From the NCBI RefSeq assembly GCF_004210375.1, contig NC_134834.1:149763009-149827008 (forward strand): a DNA stretch of 64,000 bases. Reading direction: 5' to 3'. The DNA is from Tachypleus tridentatus (Eukaryota > Arthropoda > Merostomata > Xiphosura > Limulidae). Within the stretch, counting starts at the first letter, position 1, and each line of letters begins with the position of its first letter. This document shows, in pieces, positions 42,101 through 63,830 of the stretch. The notes beneath the pieces were generated by a model. It was not told the DNA's origin. It worked only from the letters and a program-made list of their open reading frames with translations, and ran no database searches. Both the position numbers and the translations under genes were made by a program.

Positions 42101-44901
42101 CATATCTTTAGGCTGTACTGACACTAGTGTTCTTGCTAAGATTGCTGGCGAGATAGACCTAAAGAAATTGGCTAAAACTGGTGTCGTTGATGCTTGTGAG
42201 GACTTTCCCAACACTAACACAGCATGTATTTGGCCACACTGAATGCTTATTACAGATTACTTACCCAAAGGAGAATGTTTTAGAATACACAGTACATTGG
42301 GCTCTGTGTTGATCATTCTGAAGATCTTTTGTCAGCCAGGGATTTCATCTTCTAGGATTCACTGAACAGGTATTTGTCTCTCATTGTCCTTGTTTCCAAA
42401 CCACCGCCTTCTGATCACAAAGATCTAGTTTCGTGCCCAGGTTAGTTCTATAGATATCTAAAAGGTTGCTACAAAAATGATGATTCCAAACATCATCATA
42501 ACAGAGCCAATAACGTTCTTTTATTTCAATATATCAGAATTTTCACATCTTTTCCAAAACCATGAGATAAGATCGAATTCTTCAACAACTTTTCAGGCCC
42601 TACAGCTGCATCCGTAATATTATAAGACTTTATAAAACCCTGTATGAATAAACTGAGTTGTTCATGAACATTTTTGTTAAAGATTTGGTCACCAGGAGAG
42701 CATATTGTCTACTCCTTGCTGACTCGTCCTGATCTCACGATACCAATACAAGGACAGCATTAGCCAATGGAGAACATGTTTAGCTACTGTTTATTGACTT
42801 TGTTTCTATCTCACTGCAACAGTACGAATAAAAGCACAAGCCCCGAAAGAGGACATGTTGTCTGCTTCTTGGTGATTCGTGATACCAAGACAGCAACGTT
42901 CTGGTCTTTTTATGACACAAATAACATGGTAGAGCTGAACATTGTTTTAAAAAATTCTGTTGAGACAATATCAAATATGTCGATAACAACATATTTTGTA
43001 GCAAACTGTTAAAAGGTCTTTCTTCTCCATCAAGAGTAAAGCTGGCACCAACATATACACAAGATTAAAAGTTAAAACCTTTAGTTGATCATTTTTTCTC
43101 TCACCAAAATGTAAATTTTATTAAGATAAGATGACACAGAGATCAGATATGCTGTATTAATCTCTATTTTGTTGCAAAAGACTAGTGTTGCCAAATTTAC
43201 AGCTCATCATGCTGTTTGGAAATGCGAAGAAAATAATTATTTATATTAGGCCTCACATACGAGTAGAATGCAAGCTTTATTCACCACGAATAAACAAAAA
43301 TACTTTCGATGTTGTATAACATGTTATATACCATGATTATTAATTATCTATTATTATATTGCATACAACTTGGTACATTGAAACTTTTGTTCGGCTTGGT
43401 TTGTTTTGAATTTCGCGTAAAACTACACGAGGGCTATCTGCGCTAGTTGTCCCTAATTTTGCAATGTAAGACTAGAGGGAAGGCAGCTAGTCATCACCAC
43501 CAACCGCAAACTCTTGGGCTACTCTTTTATCAAGGAATAGTGGGATTGACCGTAACATTATAACGCCCTCACGGCTGAAAGGGTGAGCATGTTTGGTGTG
43601 ACGAGGATTCGAACCCGCGACCCTTGAATTAGGAGTCGAGCGCCCTAATCACTTGGCCATGCTGGGCTAGGTAATAAGAAATAAAGACATTAAATTTCAC
43701 TTACGAGTGGTGGGCAGAACACAGACAGCCTATTATGTAACTTTGAACTTAATTACTAACAGCTTCTCTTCCGAATAAAACCTTTGCTAACGGCACCTAG
43801 TGACAACAATTCAAATTTCAGATAGAAAACAATTCGCTGTCATTGCAGTGTTGGCAGTAAATTCCCTGTGAGATAGAGGAAATATCTTATACGTGAATAT
43901 CCATTATTAAGCGTGAATAGAAGAAATGGGGATATATACAGGAGGGACAATACGTGGAAGAGGCACTTATTGTACACCTCCTCGTTCTGATTCAGTCATC
44001 AGAAATTTCTTAATCATAGTTTTCACCTTCAGGATAGACAAGTCACTCAAACATCGCTTCTCAATGTAGTTATTTTGCACACTTGATTTTTTATTTTTTT
44101 TAATCAACAACAGTTCTTTTCTGAACTATAGATCCTGTAAAAACACCTACTAACTTAAACTATTTGTTACTGATATTTTTTCTTTACTTTGTTTCCTAAA
44201 TGATTTCAAATAAGTCAAGTTTTATGTAAATGTATAGATTATTAGTGATAATATGATTATTGGCAGGTTGTAATTAAATATTTCTTGTTCGTCTACAGCA
44301 TGGTTATTTAACCATTAACTTTTTGGTACATTAATATTTTTACATGTAAATCAACTTTCCTAACCTTGATCTCTTCATTAAATAATTCTAGTGTTCTGGA
44401 GGACAAAGACCACATCAAGAAACTTTAGGTAATCCCTGGTTAGAAAGAAGTCGTAATGTGTTTGATCAACATCATCCAGTATGGGAAGCAGAAATATGTA
44501 GAACTTCCTGGTCACCCTTACATCAGACGACCTTTGGAGGAGAATGTCCAGTGAAAAAGGAAGCCACAAGAAGAGCTGCATGGATTAACTTGCATAGAAG
44601 GATGGCCGAAAAGTTCTACGAATCTAATAGAAACAATTACTGGTTATCTTCTCAGCAGGATCTTTTTGGAGAACCACCCCTCTCAAGTGATGACAAAGCG
44701 AGAAGAGCTGCTTGGATAGCTTATAATAGGGGATTTTGTGAAGGAGGACCGGGAAATAAAGTGAACACGATGCCGAATGACTGGTTACTGTACCACCGAG
44801 AAAGTATCAAAGAACATTGGTCAAAGAAACAGGAGTTCGCCGAAAGAGCTGCTTGGATTGCTTTCTGTCGTGCTTTGGCCAATGGCAAAGGTTATTCGTA
44901 G
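32803..44901 (+). CDS. EFHD2: EFHD2/swiprosin-like protein with C-terminal Trp repeats (gene A)
   Basis: Four exons, 32803-33170, 34201-34348, 35000-35116 and 44392-44901, joined by GT-AG introns, give about 380 aa. Residues 106-123 (PYPEFSEFSPSQCYGFEQIF) match the conserved leader of swiprosins. Two canonical EF-hand loops follow: D-R-N-H-D-G-Y-L-D-F-G-E (125-136) and D-K-D-G-D-G-K-L-S-F-S-E (161-172). The FLLTW exon follows as in EFHD1/2. Swiprosins are Ca2+-dependent actin-binding and bundling adaptors. Instead of the usual C-terminal coiled coil, residues about 225-380 form six or seven degenerate ~24-residue repeats, each starting with a Trp (e.g. ARRAAWIAYNRGFCEGG). Intron 3 (9.3 kb) carries a hAT element and SINEs. 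The start codon is uncertain because the frame is open further upstream. Function beyond Ca2+ binding is inferred. Confidence 0.85.
33297..33553 (-). mobile_element. SINE type A, intact, 13-bp TSD, in gene A intron 1
   Basis: The tail TTGGAATTTCGCACAAAGCT leads to a GGCCATGCCAGGC head in reverse orientation. The 13-bp duplication CTAGTGGTGAGAG lies at 33284-33296 and 33554-33566. Confidence 0.95.
33927..34146 (-). mobile_element. SINE type A, head-truncated, in gene A intron 1
   Basis: AAAATTTTGCACAAAGCTAC tail, GCCGTCCCTAATATAGTACT, ATTGATCGAAACATTATAAC block and GGATTCGGACCCGCC at the head side. It ends about 50 bp before exon 2. Confidence 0.85.
34201..34348 (+). CDS. EFHD2: Gene A exon 2, paired EF-hands
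   Basis: 148 nt, the same length and phase as the homologous exon of gene C (61180-61327). Both EF loops have acidic/Asn residues at positions 1, 3 and 5, Gly at 6 and Glu at 12, so both should bind Ca2+. Confidence 0.93.
34425..34704 (+). mobile_element. SINE type A in gene A intron 2
   Basis: GGGCCCAGCATGGCCAGATG head, CGGGTTCGAATCCAGGTCGT B box and AAATTCAAAACAAAAAC tail. It is opposite in orientation to the two SINEs before exon 2. Confidence 0.92.
35000..35116 (+). CDS. EFHD2: Gene A exon 3
   Basis: Acceptor CCAATGCAG, then FLLTWRLAIHNQNICRNHVF and on to FEGTCNCK, 39 codons, phase 0 on both sides, donor GTGTGT. It aligns with the FLLIF...LARL segment of EFHD2 and with gene C exon 3 but is 15 codons shorter than the latter. 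Confidence 0.85.
35321..35534 (-). mobile_element. SINE type A, diverged, in gene A intron 3
   Basis: TTTGTTTTGTTGTATTTCGT tail, GACTATCTGCGGTAGCTGTC, CCACGGCTGAAAGCAGATTG and a CACCTGGCCAATATGG head with internal deletions. Confidence 0.8.
35741..35780 (+). repeat. Fragment of the foldback repeat family
   Basis: It contains GCGACCTTCTTCGGTCATTT, the same core as the copies at 24505-24606 and 30320-30417. Confidence 0.5.
35790..37860 (-). pseudogene. Decayed hAT-like transposase remnant
   Basis: On the - strand, shifting frames give YCYKRSDKIDGLLQKVFPDS, then a STFIRHSTAVDML segment (37273-37506) and a PSLISIGCFVENISE segment. These resemble the SxFxGH...DLL and LLNIGSCGLHVVH regions of hAT-superfamily transposase-like proteins. 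Many stops and frameshifts are present, and a SINE has inserted at 36664-36931. Boundaries are approximate; the part below 36600 is assigned only by position. Confidence 0.5.
36664..36931 (-). mobile_element. SINE type A nested in the hAT-like remnant
   Basis: TTTAAATTTCACGCAAAGCT tail, AGGGATTGACCGTCACATTA block and a CCATCTGGCCATACTGTCCC head. Confidence 0.9.
38252..38337 (+). mobile_element. SINE type B copy, internally deleted
   Basis: CCTCCCA head start fused to CCGGGCTTCGATACCTGTGG and GCTTTGCGCTTAATTCAAAT tail; the A-box region is missing. Confidence 0.7.
38565..38841 (-). mobile_element. SINE type A nested in the hAT element, 12-bp TSD
   Basis: Full-length reverse copy with duplication TATTTTAGGTAC at 38553-38564 and 38842-38853. 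It inserted after the hAT element and is very similar to the copy at 33297-33553. Confidence 0.95.
38873..39075. repeat. Inverted repeat inside the hAT end (39-bp arms)
   Basis: Arm 38873-38911 (starting AAAAGCCTTAGAAC, ending AAAGCAAGCGAT) is the near-exact reverse complement of 39037-39075. A third, shorter copy of the motif ATCACGGCCAAAGCAAGCGA lies between them at 38985-39004. Confidence 0.9.
39133..40917 (-). pseudogene. hAT transposase (ZBED5/FAM200-like), frameshifted
   Basis: It starts MEKYLSKSGAAKEDVLNQ. The BED-finger part reads FCLLCNAALSNE...KLKRHLETK, but the last His of the zinc ligands appears replaced (KL for KH). Middle segments read VPLSNDTISRR-like and FQVDESTDVSGKA (catalytic Asp region), then a long piece at 39489-40238 with VFSDGCPSMQGKKKGF and HTEVRWLSKGNVLKRL. 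The C-terminal dimerisation segment (39133-39396) has SSWFCEIGFSALTEIKARKR. At least three frameshifts or stops separate these pieces, so no active transposase is expected. Domesticated host genes of this family exist, but the disruptions argue against domestication here. Confidence 0.9.
41507..41782 (+). mobile_element. SINE type A in gene A intron 3
   Basis: ACTTGGCATGGTCAGGTGGT head, GCGGGTTCGAATTCCCGTCA B box, GCGCAAAATTCAAAAATAAA tail. Confidence 0.92.
41649..41954 (+). repeat. Duplicated block, copy 1 (copy 2 at 45667-45976)
   Basis: SINE tail plus about 175 bp of unique-looking flank containing ACTACACAACATATGATTCG and ATAGTCTAC. The second copy, 4.0 kb downstream, is in the same order and orientation with roughly 10-15% differences by eye. 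Confidence 0.8.
43397..43670 (-). mobile_element. SINE type A in gene A intron 3
   Basis: TTGTTTTGAATTTCGCGTAA tail, AGTGGGATTGACCGTAACAT block, GGCCATGCTGGGC head. Confidence 0.92.
43705..43757 (+). mobile_element. SINE type B 3' fragment
   Basis: GAGTGGTGGGCAGAACACAG and ATTATGTAACTTTGAACTTA match the 3' half of type B copies. Confidence 0.6.
44392..44901 (+). CDS. EFHD2: Gene A exon 4, Trp-repeat array
   Basis: 169 codons plus TAG. Trp-centred units begin at NPWLERSR, TSWSPLHQ, AAWINLHR, NYWLSSQQ, AAWIAYNR, NDWLLYHR and AAWIAFCR, spaced 20-24 residues over the last six. Conserved positions are Trp2, Ile/Leu3, Arg/Gln7, Leu/Phe9-10, Ser16-17, Asp18-19, Arg22-23 and Ala24. The exon is visibly more GC-rich than its surroundings. 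Confidence 0.92.
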   Translation, partial: CSGGQRPHQETLGNPWLERSRNVFDQHHPVWEAEICRTSWSPLHQTTFGGECPVKKEATRRAAWINLHRRMAEKFYESNRNNYWLSSQQDLFGEPPLSSDDKARRAAWIAYNRGFCEGGPGNKVNTMPNDWLLYHRESIKEHWSKKQEFAERAAWIAFCRALANGKGYS

Positions 44902-45092
44902 GAAACAGATGAGAGAAGGTCAACATTTGCAGGCTTGCCCATAAGGGAAGAATGTTTGGTTCTTGGTACGCCTCCTGAGACGACAATTTACGACTGTTTG
45001 TAACATTTTGTTCATTCAACTTGGTCTGACCTATTGGTAAAGAATCATAAAAATCAGTTAGAATTATATTATTATTTGCTTATTAGAAAATT

Positions 45093-45098
45093 AATAAA
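45093..45098 (+). terminator. Candidate polyadenylation signal of gene A
   Basis: AATAAA about 190 nt after the gene A stop codon, in A/T-rich sequence with a T-rich stretch downstream. Confidence 0.55.
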
Positions 45099-45294
45099 AA
45101 TTACATTTCTTCGTAAACATTCCTTTATTAATTTTATAATATATTAGTTTTTGGGGGACTCAGTGAAAAACCTGCATATTAACACACGCATACATTTATC
45201 ACTTTTCTGGAACGAAATAATTCGATTATCGCGCGAAAATGGAAAAAAAAAGTCCTGTTATATCAGTAAAATAAATACAAGTCTACCACGTAAG

Positions 45295-45569
45295 TTTGTT
45301 TGTTTTGAATTTTCGCGCAAAGCTACACAAGGGCTATCTGCGTTAGTCATCCCTAATTTAGCAGTGTTAGACTAGAGGAAAGGCAGCTAGTCATCACCAC
45401 TCACCGCCAATTCTTAGACTACTCTTTTACCAACGAATAGTGGAATTGATCGTCACATTATAACGCTCCCACGGCTGAAAGGACGAGCATGTTTGGTGGG
45501 ACGGGGATTCGAATCCACGCCCTCAGATTACGAGTCGAACGCCTTAACCAACCTGGCCATGCCGGGACC
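45295..45569 (-). mobile_element. SINE type A, 12-bp TSD
   Basis: Full-length reverse copy with duplication CTACCACGTAAG at 45283-45294 and 45570-45581. Confidence 0.95.
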
Positions 45570-45666
45570 CTACCACGTAAGAAGGAAGTGTATTTTGATT
45601 TCGCTCAAGTATTATTGTTTCAACTATAAATCTGGAAGCAGTAATAAAGTCATGTTGAAGTCCGTA

Positions 45667-45976
45667 GGTAAAAGAGTAGCCCAAGAGTTGGCGGTGAGTG
45701 GTGATGACTAGCTGCTTTCTCTTTATTCTCACACTAATAAATTAGGGACGGCTAGCGCAAGCAGTCCTCGAGTAGCTTTGCGTGAAATTCAAAAACAAAC
45801 AATCAATCCAATAATACAACGAACATCAGTTAAAAACAGTGAACTACACAACATATGATTCGTAAACAGTAACATAAACAAATCTGCGATAAAATATCAC
45901 ACATTAAAAATAACCAAATTTAACACTGGAATCAAACTGAAATTGGAAGAATCACATATATTTAACATAGTCTACA
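45667..45976 (+). repeat. Duplicated block, copy 2, including a SINE tail fragment
   Basis: It begins inside a type A SINE (GGTAAAAGAGTAGCCCAAGA) without the head. It then continues into the same non-SINE flank as 41782-41954 (CATATGATTCGTAAACAGTA ... ATAGTCTAC), where another SINE interrupts it. Confidence 0.8.
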
Positions 45977-46212
45977 GGGTGGCTATCTGGGCTAGCCCTT
46001 TTTAATTTTGCAGTAATAGATTAGAGGAAAGGCAACTAGTCAACACTATTCCTTTCAACTCTTGAGCTACTCTTTTATCAACCAGTAGTGAGATTAACCT
46101 ACATTGTAACGCCCCCACGGTTGAAAGGGCGAGCATGTTCGATGACAGGGATTCCGAACTGGAAACATCAGGTTGCGAGTCAAACGCTCTAATCACCAAG
46201 CAGTGCCAAGCC
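45977..46212 (-). mobile_element. SINE type A, tail-truncated and diverged
   Basis: GGTGGCTATCTGGGCTAGCC, CCCCCACGGTTGAAAGGGCG and a CACCAAGCAGTGCCAAGCC head. Confidence 0.85.
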
Positions 46213-46486
46213 TAATGAAATCGGTCACAGTGAGAAGAACAACATGCCTTATTCTTATTATTCCTTCTACTTCACACTTTCAACGACTTTTTGGGATTGT
46301 AGTTTAACGTTTTCTTTCCATTTAAACATCAGATTTTACAACCTTGGACTTACGAGTAAGACTAGTGAGTATTTATTTATGCACAGTTTTCGGTGATCGT
46401 CTCAGTGAATATTGATATATTGGATAGTTAAGCACTGAAAAACAGGTTTTCTTTGGGTATATTATGTTAAGTAACAACTCACTATT

Positions 46487-46543
46487 AGTAACCCCTGATT
46501 TTAACGTTGTAAATCCGTAGACTTATCGCTGTACTAGCGGGGG
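46487..46543 (-). mobile_element. SINE type C head fragment
   Basis: AACCCCTGATTTTAACGTTG and GTAGACTTATCGCTGTACTA in reverse. It abuts a forward type C copy head-to-head. Confidence 0.7.
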
Positions 46544-46545
46544 GC

Positions 46546-46675
46546 CTCCCTCCCGGTAGTACAGCGGTATGTCTCCGGATTTACAACGCTTAAATTCGCT
46601 TCGATTCCCCTCGGTGGGCTCGGCAGATAGCCCGATGTGGCTTTGCTATAAGAAAACACACACACTACCGGGAGG
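46546..46675 (+). mobile_element. SINE type C copy bracketed by an 11-bp inverted repeat
   Basis: CCTCCCGGTAG (46549-46559) at the head is matched by CTACCGGGAGG (46665-46675) after the CA tail. The body has CTTCGATTCCCCTCGGTGGG and AGCCCGATGTGGCTTTGCTA. Confidence 0.8.
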
Positions 46676-46819
46676 TTTGTTTTGTATCAAATATCTAATA
46701 TTAAATTTTCATTGGAAGGCAGTTAATGTGTTTTTAATTGTATTCCGCATATATCATGTAAGATCAAGTCGGCCACTAATTTCTGTACGATGGACTTCCT
46801 GATTTTAAGAATAAAGTCA

Positions 46820-46902
46820 GATTTACACTGCTATAATCGGAGGTTCGATTCCCCTCGGTGGACACAGAAGAAAGCCTGATATGGCTTTGCTATAAAAAAC
46901 AC
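46820..46902 (+). mobile_element. SINE type C 3' part
   Basis: ATTTACACTGCTATAATCGG, AGGTTCGATTCCCCTCGGTG and CTGATATGGCTTTGCTATAA; the head is missing. Confidence 0.7.
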
Positions 46903-46980
46903 TTATCAATAAAATATCAAAATACTAATTTATACCACAAAATGAAAATAATAGAACAGAAATTAAGACACTCATTAAAA

Positions 46981-47064
46981 GAAATAGATTTTGAAATTAA
47001 ATGAAATAGATTTTGAAATTAAATGAAATAGATTTTGAAATTAAATGAAATAGATTTTGAAACT
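46981..47064. repeat. 22-bp tandem repeat, about four copies
   Basis: The unit is GAAATAGATTTTGAAATTAA plus AT, nearly perfect. Confidence 0.9.
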
Positions 47065-47815
47065 AATCTATACGACAACACTAAAATAATGGAAAAAATT
47101 TAAATCACCCATTAAAAAAATAGCCTTTAAAACTCATGTGATGAAGCTATTATTTATATATATTTCATAAGTAAGAGGAACATCACAGTAACTTCCGCAT
47201 GATGTCAGCGTTATTAGATTAAGCGCCATTTTATTTTGCAGACGTACAATAAATGATCTAGTGCTGGTATAATTCGCCTTGTAGATTGTGATAATGTTAT
47301 TATGATATTGTCTTGCCAGAAGAGAAAGTTAAGTATGAAAAAGTTAAATACACTAGGCAGGAAGGCGGAATTCGTTAAAGCAAAAAGGTACATTTATAGA
47401 CTAGTCTAGCCTTGAGTAATAATTTATATTACTAACGATGTATGTTAAGTTACTATGACAGTATAAGTTATAATGTGATGAAGCATGGCTATGTATACCA
47501 TACAACTATGGTAATAGGCTTAATTTATTTTTAAATATTACATTCATTATTTGGTCTTGTTTCGAGAAGAAAAATGTATAATAGTGTTACAATCATACGA
47601 CTGAATTATTTTTATTATTTAATTTTTATAGAGCATATTGTTGTATATAAGACATATCAATATTAGAAGTAAGCGACCTTGTGACATTTACATGTTATCG
47701 TAATCGTACTAAAGGCGATTAATTTGTCACGTAAGTATCCAATCTTAGTGTAGGCCTCAAAGAAATATTTAATTCCATCTAAACGGTGCCTAAAAAACTG
47801 TTTCCAATAAGAATT

Positions 47816-48062
47816 GGCCTGACATGTCTTGGTGGTTCGGGCACTCGAATCGCCATCTGCGGATCACGGGTTTGAATCTCCGTCACACTGAAAATTATCG
47901 CCTTTTTAGTTGTGTGGGCGTTGTAAGTGACGGTCAATCCCACTGTTCGTTGGCAAAAGGGTTGGCGATGCCTTTCCGATAATCTGTCACTACTGAGTTA
48001 GTGACGGCTAGTGCAGATGGTTGTCGAGTAGCTTTGCGCGAAAGTCCAAACAAATCAAACCA
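47816..48062 (+). mobile_element. SINE type A, diverged
   Basis: GGCCTGACATGTCTTGGTGG head, CACGGGTTTGAATCTCCGTC B box, GCTTTGCGCGAAAGTCCAAA tail, with an internal deletion. Confidence 0.85.
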
Positions 48063-48224
48063 ATAAAACAAAAATTAAAGCAGGAGGGCTTTGATGGTGA
48101 AGAATCCAATTTTAGAAAACAGTGTTTGGGTGGGACAAAAGTGTGTACGTATGTGAATGGTTGGGATGAACCTCCGTGGTGTATATTATAATTTTTGAAA
48201 CATCTTTTTTTTTGGGGTACCAGT

Positions 48225-48335
48225 CCCCTCCCTTTGTGGCTCAGCGGTAAGTCTGAGGGCTTATAATGCTAAAAATCGATTTGAAACTTTCGGTGGGCAG
48301 AACACGGATAGTCCAATGTGTAGCTTTTTTTTTTT
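48225..48335 (+). mobile_element. SINE type B copy
   Basis: CCCTCCCTTTGTGGCTCAGC head, TCGGTGGGCAGAACACGGAT and a CAATGTGTAGCTTTTTTTTT end. Confidence 0.75.
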
Positions 48336-49464
48336 GTTGTTGTTGTCAATAAACACCAGTTTCTAGCGGTGTGAGCTCCCAGTCTTGTTGCCGATTTATT
48401 GAGGGTGGGAAGTAAGGAAATATCTCAAATATTAAGATAATAAAGACATCAGAGATAAATCACCTTAAAAAATCTTCAGTTTTATTCTCATTCTCTCTTT
48501 TCTTGACGACATTTTAATTATCGAATCGTTATTTTTCAATATAGTCTGTTGATTTATGACGTAATTTTGAATGTCATTCCGAAACGAATGCAACACCCAA
48601 TAAAATAATATCTCGTGAAGTAGAAGCATTTAGATTTAAACAATATAATAATCACAGTATAAAAAGGCTAAAGAAACTGTAGAATTATGCACGGACTGTT
48701 CTCTACGTTGAAATATTTTTATTTGCTAGTTTCTGGTCGTTTTACCGGAGCCTTCATCGTTATATATAAATATTTTAAAAAAGAAAGCAACTTAAAACAA
48801 AAAGAAAACTAAAAATAATTGAACCACACACAAAGCTACAAGGTTAGAAAACAAATGGTAACACTAGATGTTAAACTATTATCTGATTTAAATAACGTTT
48901 CGAGACTGATTTCGTTCGTGAGTTATGTTTAGAATAATTTTGCAATGATGTGATAGCTTTAAAGAATATGTTATGTTGTGAATGCCTTTTCTTGGCTACG
49001 AAACATGATTATAATTAATTACTCTGGTTCTCTGAGGGGCCGTTGGTATTGTAATTGCATCCGTGTGTGTGTATGTATATCTATTTCTGCGCTCTTATCT
49101 CGAAAACTAATAGACTGATGTGTATGAAAATCTCACACAAGATGGGATGTCAATATGGATCAATCCTCCCCAAATTTGGTCCAGATCTGGATTCTAGATC
49201 ACTTTGAAGCATTTTTATAATGGCTAAATAAGGTATTTTTTTCTGTCTTGGTTAGTAATTTTGTCAAATGTGATCGTATTTGTACCAAATTTCATGTCCA
49301 CATTAAGGTTGGGATTCCTCAACACACTACAAAAATTCGTTCGGATCGTTGATTAGTCTGGATCTGAGAAGGATTTACTGGGTTTTAGAAAGTGAAATTT
49401 AACTTCGGTATAAACACGTAATCTAGAAAACACCACATTTTATATTGAGTTAATTAGGAGTTCT

Positions 49465-49730
49465 TGGTTTGGTTTTTGTTTTGAATTTCACGCAAAGCTA
49501 CACGAGGGCTATCTGTACTAGCCGTCCCTAATTTAGAAGTGTGAGACTAGAGGCAAGACAGTTAGTCATCACCACCCACCGCCAACTCTTATGTTACTCT
49601 TTTACCAACGAATAGTGGGATTGACTGTCACATTATAACGCCCCCACGGATAAAAGGGCGAGCATGTTTGGTGTGACGAGGATTCGAACCTGCGACCCTC
49701 GGATTACGAGTTGAGTGCCTTAACCACTGT
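49465..49730 (-). mobile_element. SINE type A copy
   Basis: TTTTGAATTTCACGCAAAGC tail, CGAATAGTGGGATTGACTGT block, GATTCGAACCTGCGACCCTC B-box side; the last head bases are missing. Confidence 0.9.
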
Positions 49731-50029
49731 ATAAATAGTATTTCGACCACGATATTTTGACCTTATCTGTGGACGACGACGCGTTTCGCTCAGCTTAGAG
49801 ATAAGAGAAGACCCAAAGGAACCTGAAAAATTAAAGTATATTCTGACATCTAACAATTCTTGTGCTTCTTGCCTTGATTAAACCGTAATGGCAGAATGCC
49901 CATTAAAGTTGTTGTACGGAGAGTGAAGATTTCTTTTTAGAGTTATTGTCAAAATGTATTTAAAAACTCATTATCAGATAGTGTGTGTATTAATTATACT
50001 ATTATGTTAGTGAGATTTGAACCATCTCG

Positions 50030-50300: not shown

Positions 50301-51007
50301 CTTTTATACAGAGAGATTAGAGTAACAACTTTTGATTGCTCTATTATTATTAACTGTTCAAAACCATAACTTGGGAAGTGTTCAGTGAGAGAGGTGAAAG
50401 GTTGACAACCAAGATTGAATTCTTTTATTGTAAATTACAATACTGTGAAAATAATATATGTTTTACTATTAAAATAATCTATTTTTGTTTGAGCCTACGT
50501 TTCACTATTGCGGCTTCTTCAGAGCTAATAAGGCCACAACAGCGAAATGGTGATTGAAATAAAAACGTTTATTTTAATTATCTGGAGAGTAAGATCGTTT
50601 TGTTATTCATTAAACTTATTTTACGTCTACTGAACACAACATCCTCTACTTTTATCTTAAAACTTTCACGATTTGATCCTAAAAGAATATCTAAACAATA
50701 CTGCTATTGTTGTATCATAGCAACGTCTAGTCTAGGTTGTGAGTAATGGTGGCTTGGCTTACTTTGTTTTAATTACGTTTTAGTCTTTTAAATTCACATT
50801 GTAAAACTAACGATGAGAAAATTGTAAATTTGTAAACCGAACTGTGTATGATAAAATCAGTATCTACAAACGTGTTTTTATTAAAGTGTGACTGTAGTTT
50901 TGTTTAATCGATTATTCGGCAAATGAAAACGTTTTAAACTACTATCACATCGTCTAATTTGTTAAAAAGGTCTTTCCACCATAACCACCAGAAATTCGTG
51001 CTCGGCT

Positions 51008-51667
51008 ATGACTAGTGCATTGTGCAGTGACCTCTGTCAGCCACACGACGGGTTATCTAGAAAAGCAGCTTGGATTGCGTTTTATAAAGGAATGTGTGAT
51101 GCACCATGTACGTCACTGGATCATGCAGCTAGACTGGCTGCTTGGAGATCTTACAGACAAGCATTACATGGCGAACCAGTCCCGTCTTGGTTACTTGACG
51201 TAAGAAGAAAAGTGTGGTCGCCTTATTGTCGTCCATTTATTGAACCGCCTGTTTCGCCATATTTGGAAGGTCCAAGATACTGTGGTTGGAGACCTATCTA
51301 CCGCACGACACCCGAACAAATACTTACGCCGACAGAAAAATCCGCAATGAAGGATGCCTGGATATCTTATCACCGGACTCTTTTGAGGAATCGCCATCCG
51401 CCCAAGGATGTAGTAGTGAGATATCCTACCTTTTCACCTTGCAATCGTAGACTGTGTAACGTCGTTTATCCGCCAAGAGATGCCGTAGACATTTCCTGGA
51501 TTGCAATGAAACGGAACTTATGGAACGGAACATACCTGACATCTGATGAAGTTGTGAAGAGGGCTGCTCTGTTGTCCACATGTAGATCAATATTAGAGGG
51601 TGGAGGTCCGTATGCAGAGGTTGTTGCAAGAATGGCCTGGCATTGTGTGTACTGCAACCCTTTTTGA
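51008..51667 (+). CDS. Trp-repeat-only protein or alternative last exon of gene A (B exon)
   Basis: A 219-codon frame ends in TGA (51665-51667) and consists almost wholly of the ~24-residue Trp repeat seen in genes A and C. Units start at AAWIAFYKG, AAWRSYRQ, VWSPYCRP, GWRPIYRT, AWISYHRT, (TFSPCNRR), SWIAMKRN, (ALLSTCRS) and AWHCVYCN. There is no EF-hand, signal peptide or membrane segment, but it is Cys-rich. The frame is closed by TAA at 50963. A good phase-0 acceptor (CCTCTGTCAG|CCACAC, exon start 51041) would splice in frame onto the phase-0 donor of gene A exon 3. A weaker acceptor lies at 50968-50969. ATG 51008 would be the start if transcribed independently. Clear coding character and a polyA signal follow. 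Which model holds is unresolved. Confidence 0.75.
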   Translation: MTSALCSDLCQPHDGLSRKAAWIAFYKGMCDAPCTSLDHAARLAAWRSYRQALHGEPVPSWLLDVRRKVWSPYCRPFIEPPVSPYLEGPRYCGWRPIYRTTPEQILTPTEKSAMKDAWISYHRTLLRNRHPPKDVVVRYPTFSPCNRRLCNVVYPPRDAVDISWIAMKRNLWNGTYLTSDEVVKRAALLSTCRSILEGGGPYAEVVARMAWHCVYCNPF

Positions 51668-51843: not shown

Positions 51844-52117
51844 GCCCCTGCACGGCCACGTGGTTAGGGCGCTCGACTCGTAATCTGATGGTCGCTGGTT
51901 CGAATCCTCGTAACGCTAAACGTGTTCGCCCTTTTAGCCGTATAGGCGCTATAACATGACGTTATAATTCGCTAGTAAAAGAGTAGCTCAAGAGTTGGCG
52001 GTGGCTGATGACAACTAGCTACATTCCCTCTAGTCTGACACTGCTAAATTAGGGACGGCTAGAGCAGATAGCCCTCGTGTAGCTTAGCGCGAAATTCAAA
52101 AACAAATTCAAACAATC
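51844..52117 (+). mobile_element. SINE type A copy
   Basis: GCCCCTGCACGGCCACGTGG head, CGCTGGTTCGAATCCTCGTA B box, GCGCGAAATTCAAAAACAAA tail. Confidence 0.92.
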
Positions 52118-54308: not shown

Positions 54309-56216
54309 AATTAAGAAGAACGTGGACTTAATTATCAAATACGAAACTGTATATATATCGTTTATCCGTTTAATGAACAGGCTGGCACATCTGTATAAAA
54401 ATAACCTATTACAGAAAACCAACAAAACATGTCTCTTGATGTTAGGATAGTTATAATTGACTACATTGGACATATTGGATGTGTCTTGAATGTAAAAATA
54501 ACTACAGAAATGCTTATGTCTGATGGAAATGCAAAACAAAGTCTAGGATGTATTTAGAAGAGAACTCTAGAAAGGTGACAAAGATTTCAAACATTTAAAC
54601 ATCAGATTTGGTTCTAACATCAGGTAACTTTTTTAATCAACTCATGAAAATTTTGAGAAGGATAAGAAGAAAAACTAGCTTCCTCCCAGTGATCAGTTCT
54701 CCGAGGAAATCTTTAAGAGAGAAAGAAGAACCCTTAAGGGCTCCCATAGTGAAAATTTAAAAGCCACAGTCAAGGAAGAAATGCTTAAATACTTGAACTC
54801 TTAATATTTTATTTTTAAACATTACGTTGAACACTGTTGGGTTAGTAATATAAATATTACCGCCTTTTCACCATATAAAACATCATTTATTACCACTTGT
54901 ATAATATTTTATAATATGCATTTACAAGTGCAGTTTCTTGTACAATTCACAAGAACCTGTCCAAGAGTTTATAAAATTGGTTATTGAAACGTCATTGAAC
55001 CCTGTCAGTACAGTTGGGATAAACATGAACTGTAGTAGCCATGAAAATGATGGTGTCAGGAAATGTTACTACGTCAAAACTGGACATTTGAGGATGGAGT
55101 TTAGAAATTGAGTTGGAAATGTATTATTACCTACCCCAATTTTTTTTCTTTCAGAACTATCGAGCATAGTTTCACAGATATCCGTAGAATATCGGATAAT
55201 ATATGATGTAGTAAAAGCATGTATACTAGTCCTGGCTGACAGAAATGTAGTTGAATAAAACGTAGGTTTGCTGAGTTTTGCTATGATTATTTATTTTCTA
55301 AAACCTGAAAAGAAAATTATGTTGACTTTAATGGTTTATAGATAGCAGCACTAAGGTGTGCAGCTATCAAGACAAGGTAACGAGAAGATTGCCGAAGTGA
55401 TTTCGTGTTCATGATAACGTGTTAAATGTCGATAGTGTATACAGCAATACACGTGTACCTAGCGGTACACATCTGTGGTTTTGGAAATGTGCACGGATAT
55501 TACATAGAATGTTCACGAATGTTGAACAGCACAAATTGAATGATTACATTAGTAACACAACTATAAGCAACATGTGATTAGATATAAAAAATCTGACGAT
55601 AGTATCAGCTAGGAAGCCTTACCTAGAAACTATTACTTGAAGATTTAGTGTATGTGTTGTTTACATTAATGTTGCAAAATAGTTTTTATATTTCGATAGT
55701 GTAATGTTCTACTGATAGTGAATTTTCATGAAAAAGGTAAACGCAATGAAAACACAGTTTTACATGACATTTTTTCATAGCAGTGAGACATGTTTCAGTT
55801 GGATCCAATCAAAATATTAAGTGAATGAAGTTATTAGTAATGAATAAAATTTACACAGTAACTTAGATACTCTATCAAATGTACATTTGTTGTACCTAGT
55901 GTTTTATTTGATGTGATAGAATATTTATTATCACGTAGTTTGATATTTAGTAAATAAACAGTTCTATAGTATTTTCACACCGTTGTTTCAATTCACGGTA
56001 CTGTTAAGGTATATCAGTGTACGAGTTTGTGAGCGTGCTTTAGGCGATGGAAGTTAACAGTTTTATGATGAAACTTCGTAGCTAGTACTAAACTTTGAAA
56101 GGTAACGTAAGCAACAATGGATTATCAAGGTGAGAAGTTAGAGGTATATGTTTATATAGCAGCTAACCTGAGTCAGCTATCAGTGTCTGCGATTTCTATT
56201 CCATTTATCTCCTATT

Positions 56217-56487
56217 GGGGCTCCCATGGCCAAGCGGCTAAGGTGCTCGATTCGTAATCTGAGGGTCTCGGGTACGAATCTCTGTCTCATCAAACATGCT
56301 CGCCCTTTTTAGCCGTGGGAGCGTTATAATGTGACGGTCAATCCCACTATTCGTTGGTAAAAAAGCAGCCCAACAGTTAGCGGTGAGTAGTGGTGACTAG
56401 CTACCTTCCCTCTAGTTTTATACTGCTAAATTAGGGACGGCTAGCGCAGATAGCCCTCATGTAGCTTTGTGCGAAATTCAAAAACAA
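56217..56487 (+). mobile_element. SINE type A copy
   Basis: GGGGCTCCCATGGCCAAGCG head, CTCGGGTACGAATCTCTGTC B box, TGTGCGAAATTCAAAAACAA tail. Confidence 0.9.
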
Positions 56488-56491
56488 CCTT

Positions 56492-56550
56492 CCAGCCCTC
56501 TATTGGGTCAACGGTAAGTCTGTGGGCTTAAAGCATTAAATGTCAGCTTT
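56492..56550 (+). mobile_element. SINE type B head fragment
   Basis: CAGCCCTCTATTGGGTCAAC, GGTAAGTCTGTGGGCTTAAA; the 3' part is absent. Confidence 0.5.
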
Positions 56551-57167
56551 CATATCCATATTGATGTGTTATTATTAATGCCACTGATTTGTTCAAATTT
56601 AAGTTCTGTAGATAAGGTTTTTAGATGGATCGACATATTGTTATTAGAACTTAAATCATCACGTATTTACCCTGTTATACGAATGATTAAAGTTCTAGTA
56701 ACAATGTGTCGATCCATTTCAATAATGACAAATAGTTACTTATTTAACCTTTCCACAACTAATATAAAATATTTATTTATTAATGTTTATTTGGATAATG
56801 TTTCTTAATATTCAGTCAATTTCTGCACGTAGTAATAAACCCGTGGTTATCAGATGTCTCAAGGTTGTTAACATCCACTAACCCTTTCGTAGGAAAAGGT
56901 TAAGGTCACATACAAACTGCAGCCATCGTTCTTGGGCCTTAAGCTAGTTTATAAGTGTTTGTTTAAAAGTTAATATAGAAGTCTGTAAAAACTGATTTGG
57001 TCTGGTCTAGAAACTGTATTTAAACTGCTAGCTAAAGTAAGTAACCCGACGACTTGTGGGATATTTCAATGTATCTTCTATCAAGTGGGGTTTCATCAAA
57101 AGTTTCTTCTGTTACATCAGTCCAACAATAGAAAGTCGCAAGTCCGCCAGCTGCACACGTTCTTAGT

Positions 57168-57438
57168 TATTTTTTGTTAATTTCGCGCAAAGCTACACGA
57201 GGGCTATCTGCGCTAGCCGTCCCTAATTTAGCAGTGTAAGACTAGAGGCAAGACAATTAGTCATCACCATACACAGCCAACTCTTGGGCTACTCTTTTAC
57301 CAACGAATAGTGGGATTGATTGTAACATTATAACGCCCCCACGACTGAAAGGGGAGCATGTTTTGTGCAACCGGTATTCGAACCCGCGACTCTCGGATTA
57401 CGAGTCGAACGCTTTAACCCTCCTGGCCATGCCGGGCC
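57168..57438 (-). mobile_element. SINE type A copy
   Basis: TTAATTTCGCGCAAAGCTAC tail, GGGATTGATTGTAACATTAT block, GGCCATGCCGGGCC head. Confidence 0.92.
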
Positions 57439-57859
57439 GTAATCGCTCATATTAACAATTTGTTGTTTTACTTGTGTTCCGTTTACTGTCCATATTTAGA
57501 AATATTCTGTCCATCAAATGTATGAAATTATATCCTTGGGGATACTTGAACAACTTGGGAACATCAGTTTTTCTGAATACTACACTGTTAAATATTTCCA
57601 AAAATGTACTTTCGTAGAAGTCTATTAAAAACACAGTTCCGTTGTCCATCTATTATACGTTTGTCTACTTCTGCTACATTGCTTAGAGTCTGATTGTATA
57701 CATAAGATTCATGAACTGTCAGCTTATTTTTTCACAATGAAGGGTTCGGATCTATATATTACGATTTCATCTCGCTAACATGCTACAAGGATCAGCCAGG
57801 GTACACACTAAAAAAAGCTGGCAGAAAAGAATAATTCGTAGAAATCAAATTCCTTTGAT

Positions 57860-58060
57860 TCCGACTTTGATTCATCTGCAAAATATCCTGATTTCCATCA
57901 TAGGAAATGGGATAAAAATTGGGACACTTCAAACGACTAACCTTTGGAAGACACTTTTAGAAATAAACCAATCAATTCCTAAACGATCTGTCAGTTAAAG
58001 AACGATTGAGAGACCAGAGGCAGTTATTGGTTTTCACTACTGTCCGTGTTGATATATACA
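57860..58060 (+). pseudogene. Possible PGAM5-like coding remnant
   Basis: One frame reads SFDSDFDSSAKYPDFHHRKW then DKNWDTSND, a stop, PLEDTFRNKPINS and another stop. A shifted frame then gives RQLLVFTTVRVDIY. The WDxNWDxR...L...R order followed by a RHILLIRH-like string recalls the N-terminal half of the mitochondrial phosphatase PGAM5. Stops and a frameshift mean it is not functional if the match is real. The similarity is short and I rate it weak. Confidence 0.3.
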
Positions 58061-58426
58061 ACACGTTAACATTATGTAAGTGCTACACTTACACAATCAT
58101 ATAATTGTTGACCTGTACATTGAAATGTTTAGTATACTGCAGTATTGTTAACACTGTGGACAAATTTTAATAGAAGGAGCACGTGAACTCATCTTTTATT
58201 GCGATCCAGACAAATTTGTGGCCAAAAGTTTCAACCATCGTGACCACATCATCAGCCACTCCAAACAATACTGGCTCTCCATACTTATCACAAAGAGAGA
58301 GAAAAAAAGACGAACATAAACTCGTTTATCGCCTTGGTACTATCTATCAGTAAGAAACCTATGACAGGCCTATGATAGGTTTTATCTTATTTTTATACCT
58401 TTCTGTGATTGTGCGCAACTTATTTT

Positions 58427-58696
58427 ATTTGTTTTGAATTTCGCGTAAAGCTGCTCAAGGGCTATTTGCGCTAGCCGTCCCTACTTTAGCAGTGTAAGAC
58501 TAGTAGGAAGGCAGCTAGTCATCACCACCCATCCTCAACTCTTGGGCTACTCTTCGACCAACAAATAGCGGGATTAACCGACGCATTATAACACTCCTAC
58601 TGCTGAAAGGGCGAGCATGTTTGGTGTGACGGGGATACGAACCCGCAACCCTCAGATTACGAGTCGAGTGCCTCAACCACCTGCCCATGCCGGACC
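58427..58696 (-). mobile_element. SINE type A copy
   Basis: TTTGAATTTCGCGTAAAGCT tail, GCGGGATTAACCGACGCATT block, GCCCATGCCGGACC head. Confidence 0.92.
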
Positions 58697-58826
58697 AAAA
58701 TCCTGTTCTAAGAACACCAAACTCTAATATTAGGAGCGGAAGGGTGCTGGGAGAAATAAAATCGACATCTGTTAAACCTATTTAATTTTTTAGTAATTTT
58801 TTTTAAACTTTAGCTCTAGAACTTGT

Positions 58827-59094
58827 AGGCCCGGCATGGCCAGGTGGGTTAAGGCGTTCGACTCAAAATCTGAGGGGCGCGGATTCGAATCCCCGTCGCA
58901 CCAAACATACTCACCTTTTCAGCTGTAGGGGCGTTACAGTGTGACGGTTAATTCCACTATTCGTTGATCATAGAGTAGCCCAAGAGTTGGCGGTGGGTGG
59001 TGATGACTAGCTGCCTTCCCTCTAGTCTTTGCACTACAAAATTAGGGACAGGTAGCCCTCGAGCAGCTTTGCGTGAAATTCAAAACAAACAAAC
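58827..59094 (+). mobile_element. SINE type A copy upstream of gene C
   Basis: AGGCCCGGCATGGCCAGGTG head, GCGGATTCGAATCCCCGTCG B box, GCGTGAAATTCAAAACAAAC tail. It ends about 380 bp before the gene C start codon. Confidence 0.93.
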
Positions 59095-59477
59095 AGTTTA
59101 TAACCTACATAACTTTAAACTACAAAAATACCTCAGGTGTTGTTAAACAATATATTTTTCAAACAATACGTTTTCTTTGAAGAAAACATTGACTGTTGTG
59201 AGCAAAAAGGTTAATTCACTTCAACTATTACATAAATTAATGTATCTTAGCAACGACTGAGAATCGGTTGGTTAATATTCAGTGAGGCTTCAAAATTCAC
59301 ACGTGTCTAATCACTAAGGTTTCTAAATTCTTACGTGTTTGTTTAAATTATTTCTTAGCTATAATTATAAAAGTAGTTCATTAGAAATGTATTAATTTTA
59401 AATTATTGTTTTGGTTTCCGTTGTAAAAAGTAATCGTCAGAATTTATATCGTTGTAAAAAATTCATCCTCTTTAAAA

Positions 59478-59641
59478 ATGAAGTCAGTTGCAGATTTAAC
59501 TAATAAATTTGAGAAATATAAGAGTTTGACTGATTATTCACGTCTTGAGGTCGTGCCAAATTCGACATTTCAACATCCTTATCCTGAATTTATAGAGTTT
59601 AGTCGACAACAGTGTGACAAGTTTGAGAAATGGTTTAAAGT
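59478..59641 (+). CDS. EFHD2: Gene C exon 1
   Basis: Begins MKSVADLTNKFEKYKSL, ends in the swiprosin leader; donor GTAAGT, phase 2, the same phase as gene A exon 1. The N-terminal part is about 70 residues shorter than in gene A. Confidence 0.9.
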
Positions 59642-62600
59642 GTAAGTCGGTATATAACAACAGCTTGCCGTTCCTCAATTCCTAAACGTTTTCATCTCTT
59701 ATATAATTTTAATATTAGGCTGAAAACGTTTTAATCACTTGCTTTATGATTTACTGTTATTTTTTGTAAGTCTCGAACTTCATAGAAACAATGATTCAAG
59801 TACCAGTAGATACTCCTGAAAGTCTTGTACATTATAGAAACAATGATTCAAGTACCAGTAGATACTCCTGAAAGTCTTGTACATTATAGAAACAATGATT
59901 CAAGTACCAGTAGATACTCCTGAAAGTCTTGTACATTATAGAAACAATGATTCAAGTACTAGTACATATTCCTGTAAGTCTCGTACATTATAGAAACAAT
60001 GACTTAAGTACTAGTGGATACTTCTGTAAGTCTCGTACATTGTAGAAACAGTGATCCAAGTATTGGAAGATATTCCTGTAAGTCTTGTACTTTATAAAAA
60101 CAATGGTTCATGTACTAGTAGATATTTCTGTATGTCTTGTACTTTATAAAATCAATGGTTCAAGTACCAGTAGATATCCTTATAATTCTTGTACTTTATT
60201 AAAACAATGATTCAAGTACTAGTAGATATTTCTGTAAGTCATCGAAGTGGCTTTTTGTGCCTGAGGGTATCTCTTTTGTAACCACACTTTCCACCTCACA
60301 GATAATGAAGGAGCTACATTTTGGGTTAGAGTCTGGTTTCATAACGTGTGTGTGTCCATTTTTGTGAAAAGAAAATTACATAATCATTGGCCCTTCAGAG
60401 TTTAACGATATCATTCAACAGTAATCTAATGTTTGTTATTTTGTTTTGGAGGGTAATGAACCAGTATATAGGTACTAACTATTGTCACTCATGGACCCAT
60501 TCTCTACAGTGTATAGCAACCCTCCCACTATATGAGTACAAATAGTGTGATCATTTTATTGTTTTATGGTATATGAAGATCATACTTTTCTTGTACGATA
60601 TTTTAAGAGAAATATATATGGAAAGCCATTCTCTTTTTATGTAGTATTTCTTCATAAAAACATGAAGGATCTATTTTAAATTGTTTAAGAGTATTTTAAC
60701 ATAAAATAGAGGTTGTTTTCTGTATATTGTTTAACAGTATTTTAAGACAAAGATAAAGGTTCTATACTATGTTGTTTAATAGTATTTTAACGTAAACATA
60801 AAGGTTCTATACTGAATTGTTTAACAGTAATTTAACATGAAGATAAAGGTTCTATAGTATATTGTTTAATAGTACTTTAACATATAGATAAAAGTTCTAT
60901 ACTGTACATTGTTTAACAGCATTTAAATTAATATCAAGGTTCCATATTATATATTTTTAACGGTATTTTAACATAAAGGTTGTATAGTATATACTGTTTA
61001 ACAGTATTTTAACGTAAAGGTTCCATATTATACATTTTAAACAGTATGTTAACACGAAGGTTGTATAGTATATATTGTTTAACAGTGTTTTAACATACTA
61101 AGTCAATAGTTAAACACAACAAAAATTTTAGAGGTATATATGTGATCTTCTGAAGAATTGAAATGTTCTGTATTTGTAGACATGACCAGGATCGGGATGG
61201 CCTTCTTGATCTTTATGAGTTGTCAGTGATGTTAGAGAATCTGGGAATATTTGCCTCTAAGTCAGATATCCAGAAACTCATCACAGCAGCTGATGAAGAT
61301 CACGATATGAAGTTAAGCTTACGTGAAGTAAGTGATGTCATGATTGATATGGATTGTGTAAATTATGTGGTGTTATATATGGATTGTGTAAATTATCTGG
61401 TGTTATATATGGATTGTGTAAATTATCTGGTGCTATATATGGATTGTGTAAATTATCTGGTGCTATATATGGATTGTATGAATTATCTGGTGCTATATAT
61501 GGATTGTGTAAATTATCTGGTGCTATATATGGATTGTATGAATTATCTGGTGCTATATGTGGATTGCATAAATTATTTGGTGTTTTATATAGATCGTGTA
61601 AATTCTGGAGATTCAAGATTTTTCTTGTTTTCTGTTCATCTTTTCTCTTGACAGTTTAAATAATTATTTATTTATTTAATCCTTTTAGTTTCTTATTATG
61701 TGGCAATCAATAGCTACAAACAAAGACAATTTGAAAAACTCGCTCGCTGCAAAGTTATCTGACGTCATGAAGGAGGAAGAGCTGATCCCTTTGTCCACAG
61801 ATGTCACAAGCAAAGAAGTACTTGATGTTAAAAATCAACATAACATCAAGGTTTGTCTAATGTATAATTATAAACATTAAGTTCTCTAGTACATGGACAT
61901 TACATCGGGCATTTCTAAAGCTTGTCACTAATTTTTTTACCTTCACCAACTGATTTTTGAAATTACAGTTTAAAATGTATAATATGGAACCTTTACGTTA
62001 AAATACTGTTAAACAGTATATACTATACAACCTTTATGTTAAAATACCGTTAAAAATATATAATATGGAACCTTTATATTAATTTTAAATGCTGTTAAAC
62101 AATGTACAGTATAGAACTTTTATCTCTATGTTAAAGTACTATTAAACAATATACTATAGAACCTTTATCTTCATGTTAAATTACTATTAAACAATATACT
62201 ATAGAACCTTTATCTTCGTGTTAAATTACTGTTAAACAATTCAGTATAGAACCTTTTCTAAAGCTTGTCACTAATTTTTTTACTTTCACCAACTGATTTT
62301 TGAACAGCAGTAAAAAACAACAACAACAAAAACAAACCCTAGAATCAGTCGAAGTTTAAATAGTTACACATTTTTGGTTTAGAAAGCCCATGTATGGAGG
62401 CTTATACACAAGATAGTTTTCAAGTTAAGAAACGAACTGCTGTAGATTTATGCATATGCTCTAAAATTATATCATAGGCTTAGCTCAAACAACATACTGT
62501 CAAAGAATATCAAACAAGGATCCAGAAAGCTTTGACTTTTCATTCTGTTTCTTTAAAATAACAGGAATGTTTAATAGCAATGCCTTTTATTTGTAATTCT

Positions 62601-63830
62601 CGTTACAGCTGACATAACTAGAAACTAAACATTATATTTGTATCATACTGTTACACTTTTTTTCCTGAAGATGTTAAAATTAGAACCGAGTTGGATTCGT
62701 AACTGTATGCTAGCTGGACACTCACACCAAGTAGTTACCGTGTTTGCTGTCAGTCCTTTCTTACTTGATAGAAATTAATTTTGATCAGACTCCTGGTCAT
62801 ATAATAACCAGATTTACATCCAGTTCTTACTTCAGTATTTTAATTGCTAAGGATGAAATTTTGAGAAGTCAGGTGAACTATACAAATTGGTTTGTGAAGC
62901 TGATAGTTTTGTTTATAGTAAACCTTATTTTCACTGGTGACTAGAAAGTTTTGTTGTTGTTTCCAGTGTCAAATTTTTAGTTTACGGAACACTGACCAAG
63001 ATATTAAAAATTGGAAAAGTAAGCTGTAGTTTAATATATTTTGTAAACGAATCAAGACCAATGTTATATGCTAAACATAAACACTCTACTATTTGCACCA
63101 GTCTGAGAACTCCGAAAGCTATGATGAAAAACTAGGACATCTTCGCAGGTTGCAAAGACTTAAGTTGTCAGCCGACAAACGAAGACGAAAAGATGGTCTT
63201 ACAGAGAAAGAGGATTGCAATGAGTCCAACGAACAACGAGAAGAAGGAATTGACCAGCCAGAACCCGGACCTTCAAAGTGTGGTTCATGGTATTCTCAGA
63301 GGAGGTCTTCGAGAGTCTTCAACCAGAGGGAAGAAGCAGTGAGAAAGGCCATGTGGATAGGTATAAACAGGGAACTGTTCGAAGGCACGGGCCTCTCAAG
63401 TGATGAATCTTCGAGAATAGCTGCCTGGTTGGCTCTTCAGGAAGAACAAATAGACAAACCGGTCGTACCATTAGACGATTCCAACAAAAGAACCGTATCT
63501 CAGATGTGTGCTATATTTGAAGGAGTTGTGTCTGACAAGAAGAAGGAATACGAAAAATCGGTTTTCCTAGATGTACATCGAAGTATACTCGAACGAGCTG
63601 GTTTACCAAAAACAGAAGTTGACAGAAGTGCTCCCCGGATAGCCGCTCAACCATCGTGTCTGCCTTCAGATAAACGTGTAAGAAGGGCTGTTTGGTTAGC
63701 CATACATCGAGACCTTCTAGACCGAAACGTTTCTCCAACACACGAAGCTGCGAGAAAAGCTGCCTGGGTGTCCATCAGCCGGGAAATCTTCTGTAAAAAT
63801 ACTACACCAAAAATAAAGAGAAACAGTTAA
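59478..63830 (+). CDS. EFHD2: EFHD2/swiprosin-like protein with C-terminal Trp repeats (gene C)
   Basis: Exons 59478-59641, 61180-61327, 61689-61850 and 63102-63830 join by GT-AG introns to give 400 aa. Residues 35-54 hold PYPEFIEFSRQQCDKFEKWF, the swiprosin leader. EF loop 1 is D-Q-D-R-D-G-L-L-D-L-Y-E (57-68). EF loop 2 is D-E-D-H-D-M-K-L-S-L-R-E (93-104), with Met where Gly is usual; vertebrate EFHD2 also lacks that Gly. Exon 3 (FLIMWQSIATNKDN...LAAKLSDV) matches the family. A charged, Lys/Arg-rich helical stretch (159-200) sits where EFHD2 has its coiled coil. Then come about eight ~24-residue Trp repeats (221-395), the best being AVRKAMWIGINRELFEGTG and RRAVWLAIHRDLLDRN. Swiprosins regulate actin in a Ca2+-dependent way; the role of the repeats is unknown. 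The start is supported by an in-frame stop at 59424. The leader and EF pair are closer to canonical EFHD2 than those of gene A. Confidence 0.9.
59770..60240. repeat. 52-bp minisatellite in gene C intron 1
   Basis: Units share ACAATGATTCAAGTACCAGT, AGATACTCCTGAAAGTCTTG and TACATTATAGAA. The first copies are nearly identical (starts at 59791, 59843, 59895) and later ones are diverged; about nine in all. Confidence 0.85.
60660..61110. repeat. ~47-60-bp repeat array in gene C intron 1 (left inverted arm at 60800-61042)
   Basis: Units share TTGTTTAACAGTATTTTAAC and AAAGGTTCTATACT. The segment 60800-61042 reappears as its near-perfect reverse complement at 61968-62256 in intron 3. Confidence 0.9.
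61180..61327 (+). CDS. EFHD2: Gene C exon 2, paired EF-hands
   Basis: 148 nt, from acceptor TATTTGTAG to donor GAA|GTAAGT. The intron falls right after Glu12 of the second EF loop, exactly as in gene A. Confidence 0.95.
61351..61590. repeat. 30-bp minisatellite, eight units, in gene C intron 2
   Basis: Unit GGATTGTGTAAATTATCTGG plus TGCTATATAT, in exact 30-bp register, 23 nt after the exon 2 donor. The exon 2 reading frame stays open through all units, to a stop at 61649-61651. Confidence 0.95.
61689..61850 (+). CDS. EFHD2: Gene C exon 3
   Basis: 54 codons, FLIMWQSIATNKDN to NQHNIK, phase 0 both sides, acceptor CCTTTTAG, donor GTTTGT. Confidence 0.92.
61968..62256. repeat. Right inverted arm in gene C intron 3
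   Basis: Reverse complement of 60800-61042 with one extra ~46-bp unit. It is inserted between two ~49-bp direct repeats (61912-61960 and 62255-62303, beginning TTTCTAAAGCTTGTCACTAA). Confidence 0.92.
63102..63830 (+). CDS. EFHD2: Gene C exon 4, charged helix plus Trp-repeat array
   Basis: 242 codons plus TAA. It opens with SENSESYDEKLGHLRRLQRL (coiled-coil-like), then a Glu/Pro-rich linker, then Trp-type units starting SWYSQRRS, MWIGINRE, AWLALQEE, (VSQMCAIF), (VFLDVHRS), (PRIAAQPS), VWLAIHRD and AWVSISRE. Units in brackets have lost the Trp, so the array is decaying or specialising unevenly. Confidence 0.93.
   Translation, partial: SENSESYDEKLGHLRRLQRLKLSADKRRRKDGLTEKEDCNESNEQREEGIDQPEPGPSKCGSWYSQRRSSRVFNQREEAVRKAMWIGINRELFEGTGLSSDESSRIAAWLALQEEQIDKPVVPLDDSNKRTVSQMCAIFEGVVSDKKKEYEKSVFLDVHRSILERAGLPKTEVDRSAPRIAAQPSCLPSDKRVRRAVWLAIHRDLLDRNVSPTHEAARKAAWVSISREIFCKNTTPKIKRNS

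Follow-up and report, generated by a model that had tools for sequence, protein, structure and literature searches.

Do three exons scattered over one stretch of Tachypleus tridentatus DNA encode a single short repeat, and does that repeat belong to a family of calcium-binding proteins? The stretch, called the window below, is 64,000 nucleotides of contig NC_134834.1 (positions 149,763,009 to 149,827,008). Its open reading frame (ORF) listing includes stop-free frames at 44392-44901, 50966-51667 and 63081-63830, all on the forward strand. An earlier reading of the sequence, here called the original prediction, proposed that all three carry a degenerate tryptophan (Trp) repeat fused to EF-hand proteins of the EFHD/swiprosin type. 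We find that the repeat is real, that the first and last of these exons are predicted to end four-exon EF-hand genes (genes A and C), and that the middle one is probably a gene of the repeat alone (gene M).

A 24-residue repeat in three exons

Periodicity was assessed by autocorrelation over lags 8-60, with 300 shuffles per exon. Lag 24 ranks first in all three exons, with z values of 4.8 (the exon at 44392), 10.1 (middle) and 4.7 (last). For the same exons in order, the best z of the shuffles has a 95% point of 3.4, 3.2 and 3.4 and a maximum of 4.4, 4.1 and 4.5; the 24-residue period exceeds every shuffle, by a wide margin in the middle exon and a narrow one in the other two. In 60 simulated windows no stop-free run exceeds 189 codons, fewer than the middle and last frames have (233 and 249 codons). 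The first frame (169 codons) is not clearly exceptional by length, four runs of at least 165 codons being present in the same simulations.

To avoid circularity, profiles were built from some exons and searched in others among 4670 ORFs. A profile made from the seven units of the middle exon only finds the exon at 44392 (E 6.8e-15), the one at 63081 (E 2.7e-12) and a paralogue on contig C12 (E 4.1e-20). A profile of seven units from genes A and C only finds the middle exon (E 1.2e-7). Profiles from gene A, gene C or the C12 paralogue alone each recover the other three repeat ORFs, the weakest match being that of the gene C profile to the exon at 44392 (E 0.0011). Beyond these four ORFs, neither a real nor a shuffled ORF among the 4670 reached E 0.01. 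The lag-24 test and the cross-detection by hold-out profiles thus bear out the claim that all three exons encode the same degenerate repeat of about 24 residues.

Trp1 (16/18), Arg6 (14/18) and Arg21 (11/18) give the strongest columns over the 18 seed units, with Leu or Ile at position 2 in 14/18; Ala is frequent at 3, 23 and 24, and Glu or Asp at 10, 17 and 18. The commonest residues read [D/E]-[E/D]-x-A-R-x-A-A-W-[L/I]-A-Y-H-R-x-L-[L/F]-[E/D]-G. Apart from its numbering, the residue pattern of the original prediction was correct. Its estimate of about 22 units agrees with the 22 stretches listed by the profile over the three exons, yet 16 of these score at least 10 bits and the count is circular, 14 of the 18 model units having come from these exons.

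Predicted EF-hand genes with repeat tails

What stands in front of the repeat? Genes A and C were modelled from splice sites and reading frames, not from transcripts, and in these models each is an EFHD/swiprosin-type EF-hand core followed by a repeat tail. Gene A has four exons (32803-44901) encoding 380 amino acids and gene C four exons (59478-63830) encoding 400. Neither has an internal stop, the introns are GT-AG with phases 2, 0, 0, and exon 2 is 148 nucleotides in both.

Exon 1 of gene A (32803-33170, +) encodes a long N-terminal region and then a PYPEFSEFS block as in EFHD2, and ends at a GTAAGT donor in phase 2; the start codon is a choice among several candidates and is not proven. 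Exon 2 (34201-34348, +), placed by motif, EFHD2 alignment and splice sites, carries both EF-hand loops. Exon 3 (35000-35116, +; phase 0 on both sides) begins FLLTWRLAI and encodes the continuation of the second EF-hand and a linker. It is followed by an intron of 9275 bases and by exon 4 (44392-44901, +), which holds the Trp-repeat array and the stop, with an AATAAA at 45093. In gene C, exon 1 (59478-59641, +) ends PYPEFIEFSRQQCDKFEKWFK, exon 2 (61180-61327, +) carries both EF-hand loops (Pfam EF-hand_7, E 6.2e-7 on 61154-61360), exon 3 lies at 61689-61850 (+), and exon 4 (63102-63830, +) encodes a charged linker, the Trp-repeat array and the stop. Poly(A)-type signals follow at 63875 and 63957. 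Frame, lag 24 and profiles define the last exon of both genes.

EFHD2 (5h0p) is the top PDB match of the 400-residue gene C protein (E 2.4e-18) and of the gene A core (E 2.6e-19), spanning 94-181 of the spliced core in the latter, and the alignment of both extends across the PYxEFxEFS-type block that precedes the EF-hands. The EF-hand loops read from the sequence are DRNHDGYLDFGE and DKDGDGKLSFSE in gene A and DQDRDGLLDLYE and DEDHDMKLSLRE in gene C. In all of them positions 1, 5 and 12 hold acidic ligands and position 3 is Asp or Asn, and the cores probably still bind Ca2+. Genes A and C thus share with EFHD2 and EFHD1 (swiprosin-1 and -2) and with Swip-1 the block, the EF-hand pair, the four exons and the top PDB matches. 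AIF-1 also has an EF-hand pair, but the Pfam AIF-1 match is weak (E 0.0075, 17 bits, cut-off 50) and the best PDB matches of genes A and C are EFHD2; we know of no such repeat in AIF-1. Mouse and human EFHD2 likewise have four exons, according to PMC3036668. The proposed fusion holds, as gene models, for the first and third repeat exons and is not confirmed for the middle one, for which no EF-hand exon was found in the window and 10 kb to each side; the coordinates first given to it also missed the EF-hand exons of gene A (32803-35116).

Other features lie in or beside these genes. Exon 1 of gene A (32803-33168, +) has a sub-threshold Pfam match to DUF1722 (E 0.0026, 18.4 bits, cut-off 22.5). 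Within intron 3 of gene A, frames at 39489-40897 (-), which gave no Pfam match at E 0.1, resemble a hAT/ZBED-type transposase. A tandem repeat of about 30 bases, open on both strands, directly follows exon 2 of gene C (61340-61600).

A third gene of this type was found elsewhere in the genome. A search with the EF-hand exon of gene C, in which 13 candidates were scored at E up to 0.01, returned the query and two further places, both on C8 (E 0.0023 each), and omitted exon 2 of gene A, which indicates limited sensitivity. The two C8 places, 112700902 and 114548655, are 1.85 Mb apart and have identical EF-hand exons and many identical flanking frames, one flank being partly N; either the locus was duplicated recently or the duplication arose in the assembly. 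At the locus examined, 114548655, exon 1 ends YPEFPEFTHLECHAFKRWFTR and is followed by a 148-nucleotide EF-hand exon, an exon 3 that begins FLHCWQ and a last exon, 155 codons long, that ends in a stop, with splice sites and phases (2, 0, 0) assigned by eye. Like genes A and C, this model fits the four-exon EFHD/swiprosin layout. A repeat model that contained no C8 sequence, searched in 988 ORFs, matched this last exon at E 1.2e-6, against 0.21 for the best of 20 shuffled sets. The gene is not among the matches listed for the middle exon, the exon at 44392 or a 26-residue piece of the exon at 63102 and was reached through its EF-hand exon, and it therefore argues against an artefact. Of the evidence that ties the repeat exon to this type of EF-hand gene, the C8 gene is the strongest; it does not indicate how widespread the type is.

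Is the tail then an old and widespread feature of EFHD paralogues in arthropods or chelicerates, present as unnamed sequence in reference genomes? Exon 2 is 39-41% identical between the three EFHD-type genes, which lie on two contigs, and so deep a divergence suggests that the tail is not recent. However, the repeat exceeds the cut-off of none of the 24736 Pfam families and of no NCBIfam model, and Drosophila Swip-1 is described in PMC9076686 with a C-terminal coiled coil. We consider an ancient, widespread tail quite possible, at somewhat less than even odds.

Probable genes of the repeat alone

Gene M (51008-51667, +) is a probable stand-alone gene of 219 amino acids from its ATG. No EF-hand exon for it was found in the window and 10 kb to each side, either by tblastn at E up to 1, with the exons of genes A and C as queries, or by motif scan. 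Besides genes A and C, the only EF-hand-like places seen there are at the start of the window, in the terminal exon of another gene. This exon (176-346, +) has a Pfam EF-hand_7 match below cut-off (E 0.0024) and ends HDEF, which we take to be an endoplasmic reticulum retention-like tail as in calumenin-type proteins.

In the 2.17-Gb genome the closest relative of gene M is the paralogue on contig C12 (35% identity, E 1.4e-26), where lag 24 also ranks first (z 5.9). The two are equal in layout: both are 219 amino acids from the ATG, and in each the first Trp is residue 22. In the C12 frame a stop precedes the ATG by two codons, so that an upstream exon would have hardly any space, and a search of the 110 kb around it gave no convincing EF-hand exon; two weak matches there, to exon 3 of gene A on the opposite strand (E 0.014) and to one loose loop motif, were taken as chance. 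Over 214 codons compared (72 identical residues), nonsynonymous divergence (dN) is 0.648 and synonymous divergence (dS) 1.326. The ratio of nonsynonymous to synonymous differences, pN/pS, is 0.70 against a mean of 0.96 after re-pairing of codons (minimum of 200 re-pairings 0.81), which points to purifying selection. Shared synteny of the window and the C12 locus is not supported: in a filtered list of frames they have in common, beyond the repeat, only short ones of dispersed-repeat type. Because of the equal layout, the stop before the C12 ATG, the lack of an EF-hand exon in the regions searched and the low pN/pS, gene M and its paralogue seem to be two stand-alone repeat genes under constraint, and the repeat module seems also to exist by itself, beyond EF-hand genes. 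An EFHD gene may have captured the repeat, as the original prediction's addition of the module to the adaptor in this lineage would imply, or a tail may have come free from such a gene.

Alternatively, the middle exon might be no gene of its own and might serve gene A as an alternative terminal exon. Exon 4 of gene A is on the same strand, 6.1 kb upstream of it, and the middle exon has an AATAAA of its own (51693) and a phase-0 AG (CTGTCAG|CCA) just upstream of its first unit. Such an exon is hard to reconcile with the C12 paralogue, whose ATG is equally far from the first Trp in a protein of equal length, whose upstream stop is so close and whose surroundings (110 kb) yielded no convincing EF-hand exon. 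We judge this alternative improbable, and treat gene M as a probable gene in its own right.

A tRNA-derived element resembling a short interspersed nuclear element (SINE) was seen by eye in many copies on both strands of the window, for example at 32200-32480, 34420-34690, 51850-52100 and 58830-59090. Frames like it also occur at the C12 and C8 loci.

Kinship and possible role of the repeat

Is the repeat related to a known family? Pfam gives no matches at all for the first exon, the middle exon or the C12 protein, and matches of E 0.023 or worse for the last exon of gene C, a typed consensus and the C8 exon. A PDB profile search gave no convincing relative; its best match, PrgH (E 0.43), was treated as chance. 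It is very improbable that the repeat belongs, even distantly, to some small family already known: the strongest hint, NCBIfam Rmf_CrpP_fam on the exon at 44392 (E 0.0026, 17.3 bits), falls below the curated cut-off of 28 and does not recur for the middle exon, the exon at 63102, the C12 paralogue or the typed consensus, and kinship with Rmf/CrpP is not supported. The 24-residue Trp repeat thus appears, as originally supposed, to be without a catalogued family match in Pfam, NCBIfam and PDB, and it is not named in titles or abstract openings in the literature searched. Pattern searches of viral and prokaryotic collections gave 30 and 34 matches, not one of which was confirmed. Weak matches in the same genome, on C1 and C2 with the middle exon as query and on the C4 group with the exon at 44392, are apparently mobile-element frames or tandem repeats. 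The exon at 44392 also has weak matches at C1:133022522 and C2:111780956. TPR, PPR and HEAT are short helical repeat families. The window repeat is like them in its tandem units and in the helices of its low-confidence models, and unlike them in its 24-residue unit and in having no Pfam match above cut-off.

EFHD2 and Swip-1 are Ca2+-controlled proteins that bind and cross-link actin and require their C-terminal coiled coil for dimerisation, bundling and wound closure (PMC5156911, PMC9076686). Where EFHD2 ends in this coiled coil (PMC5156911), the last exon of genes A and C encodes a Trp-repeat array. We propose a small family that has a single 24-residue repeat in common and would comprise three EFHD-type models (A, C and the C8 gene) with the repeat in their fourth, terminal exon and two genes of the repeat alone (M and its C12 paralogue). 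The EF-hand core of genes A and C, whose loop ligands look intact, would keep Ca2+ binding and, as EFHD2 does, actin binding. The repeat array would replace the coiled coil as a self-associating or partner-binding arm, and Ca2+ would then tune an actin cross-linker with a different geometry. Proteins made of the repeat alone, which lack the Ca2+ and actin part, may bind to that partner or to the tails. We put this explanation as a whole, anatomy and coiled-coil replacement together, at roughly 0.45. Taken separately, the gene anatomy is highly probable, and the replacement of the coiled coil as assembly arm is tentative, at less than even odds.

Several points weigh against this explanation. 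The splicing of genes A and C comes from gene models. Single-sequence searches of the whole genome link the three window exons weakly (E 0.0066 to 4.77): the exon at 44392 reaches the middle exon with E 0.29 and the last exon with 4.77, and the middle exon reaches that at 44392 with E 0.0066 and the last with 4.57, so that the case for a shared repeat rests on profiles. A 26-residue piece of the exon at 63102 recovered nothing but itself. The terminal exon of the C8 gene has one clear full unit; its core carries LYPEFPEF and matches EFHD2 less well, EFHD2 being its sixth PDB match (E 6.2e-12), behind a calmodulin-calcineurin fusion (4.9e-16) and four others. The amphipathic helix of the original prediction is not supported, since 0/12 segments picked by hand exceeded their own shuffles at the 5% level in hydrophobic moment at 100 degrees (fractions 0.358 to 0.998). 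The two AlphaFold2 models, built with three sequences, contain helices and are too low in confidence to use (mean predicted local distance difference test, pLDDT, 36.1 and 40.3), because of which the repeat can be called mostly helical only weakly. Nothing in the analysis links the repeat to actin. PMC5156911 and PMC9076686 also disagree over a Ca2+ requirement of bundling itself. A bolder version, in which stand-alone proteins and EFHD tails of an undescribed helical repeat family co-assemble through the repeat, and in which the members without EF-hands determine how large a Ca2+-responsive actin network is or what geometry it has, is doubtful.

If the proposed replacement is correct, it would amount to a natural exchange of assembly domains within a Ca2+-controlled actin cross-linking system, that of EFHD2 and Swip-1, seen here as two paralogues with a tail of repeated modules adjoining what seems to be a gene of the module alone. 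The repeat would also be a new family for the catalogues.

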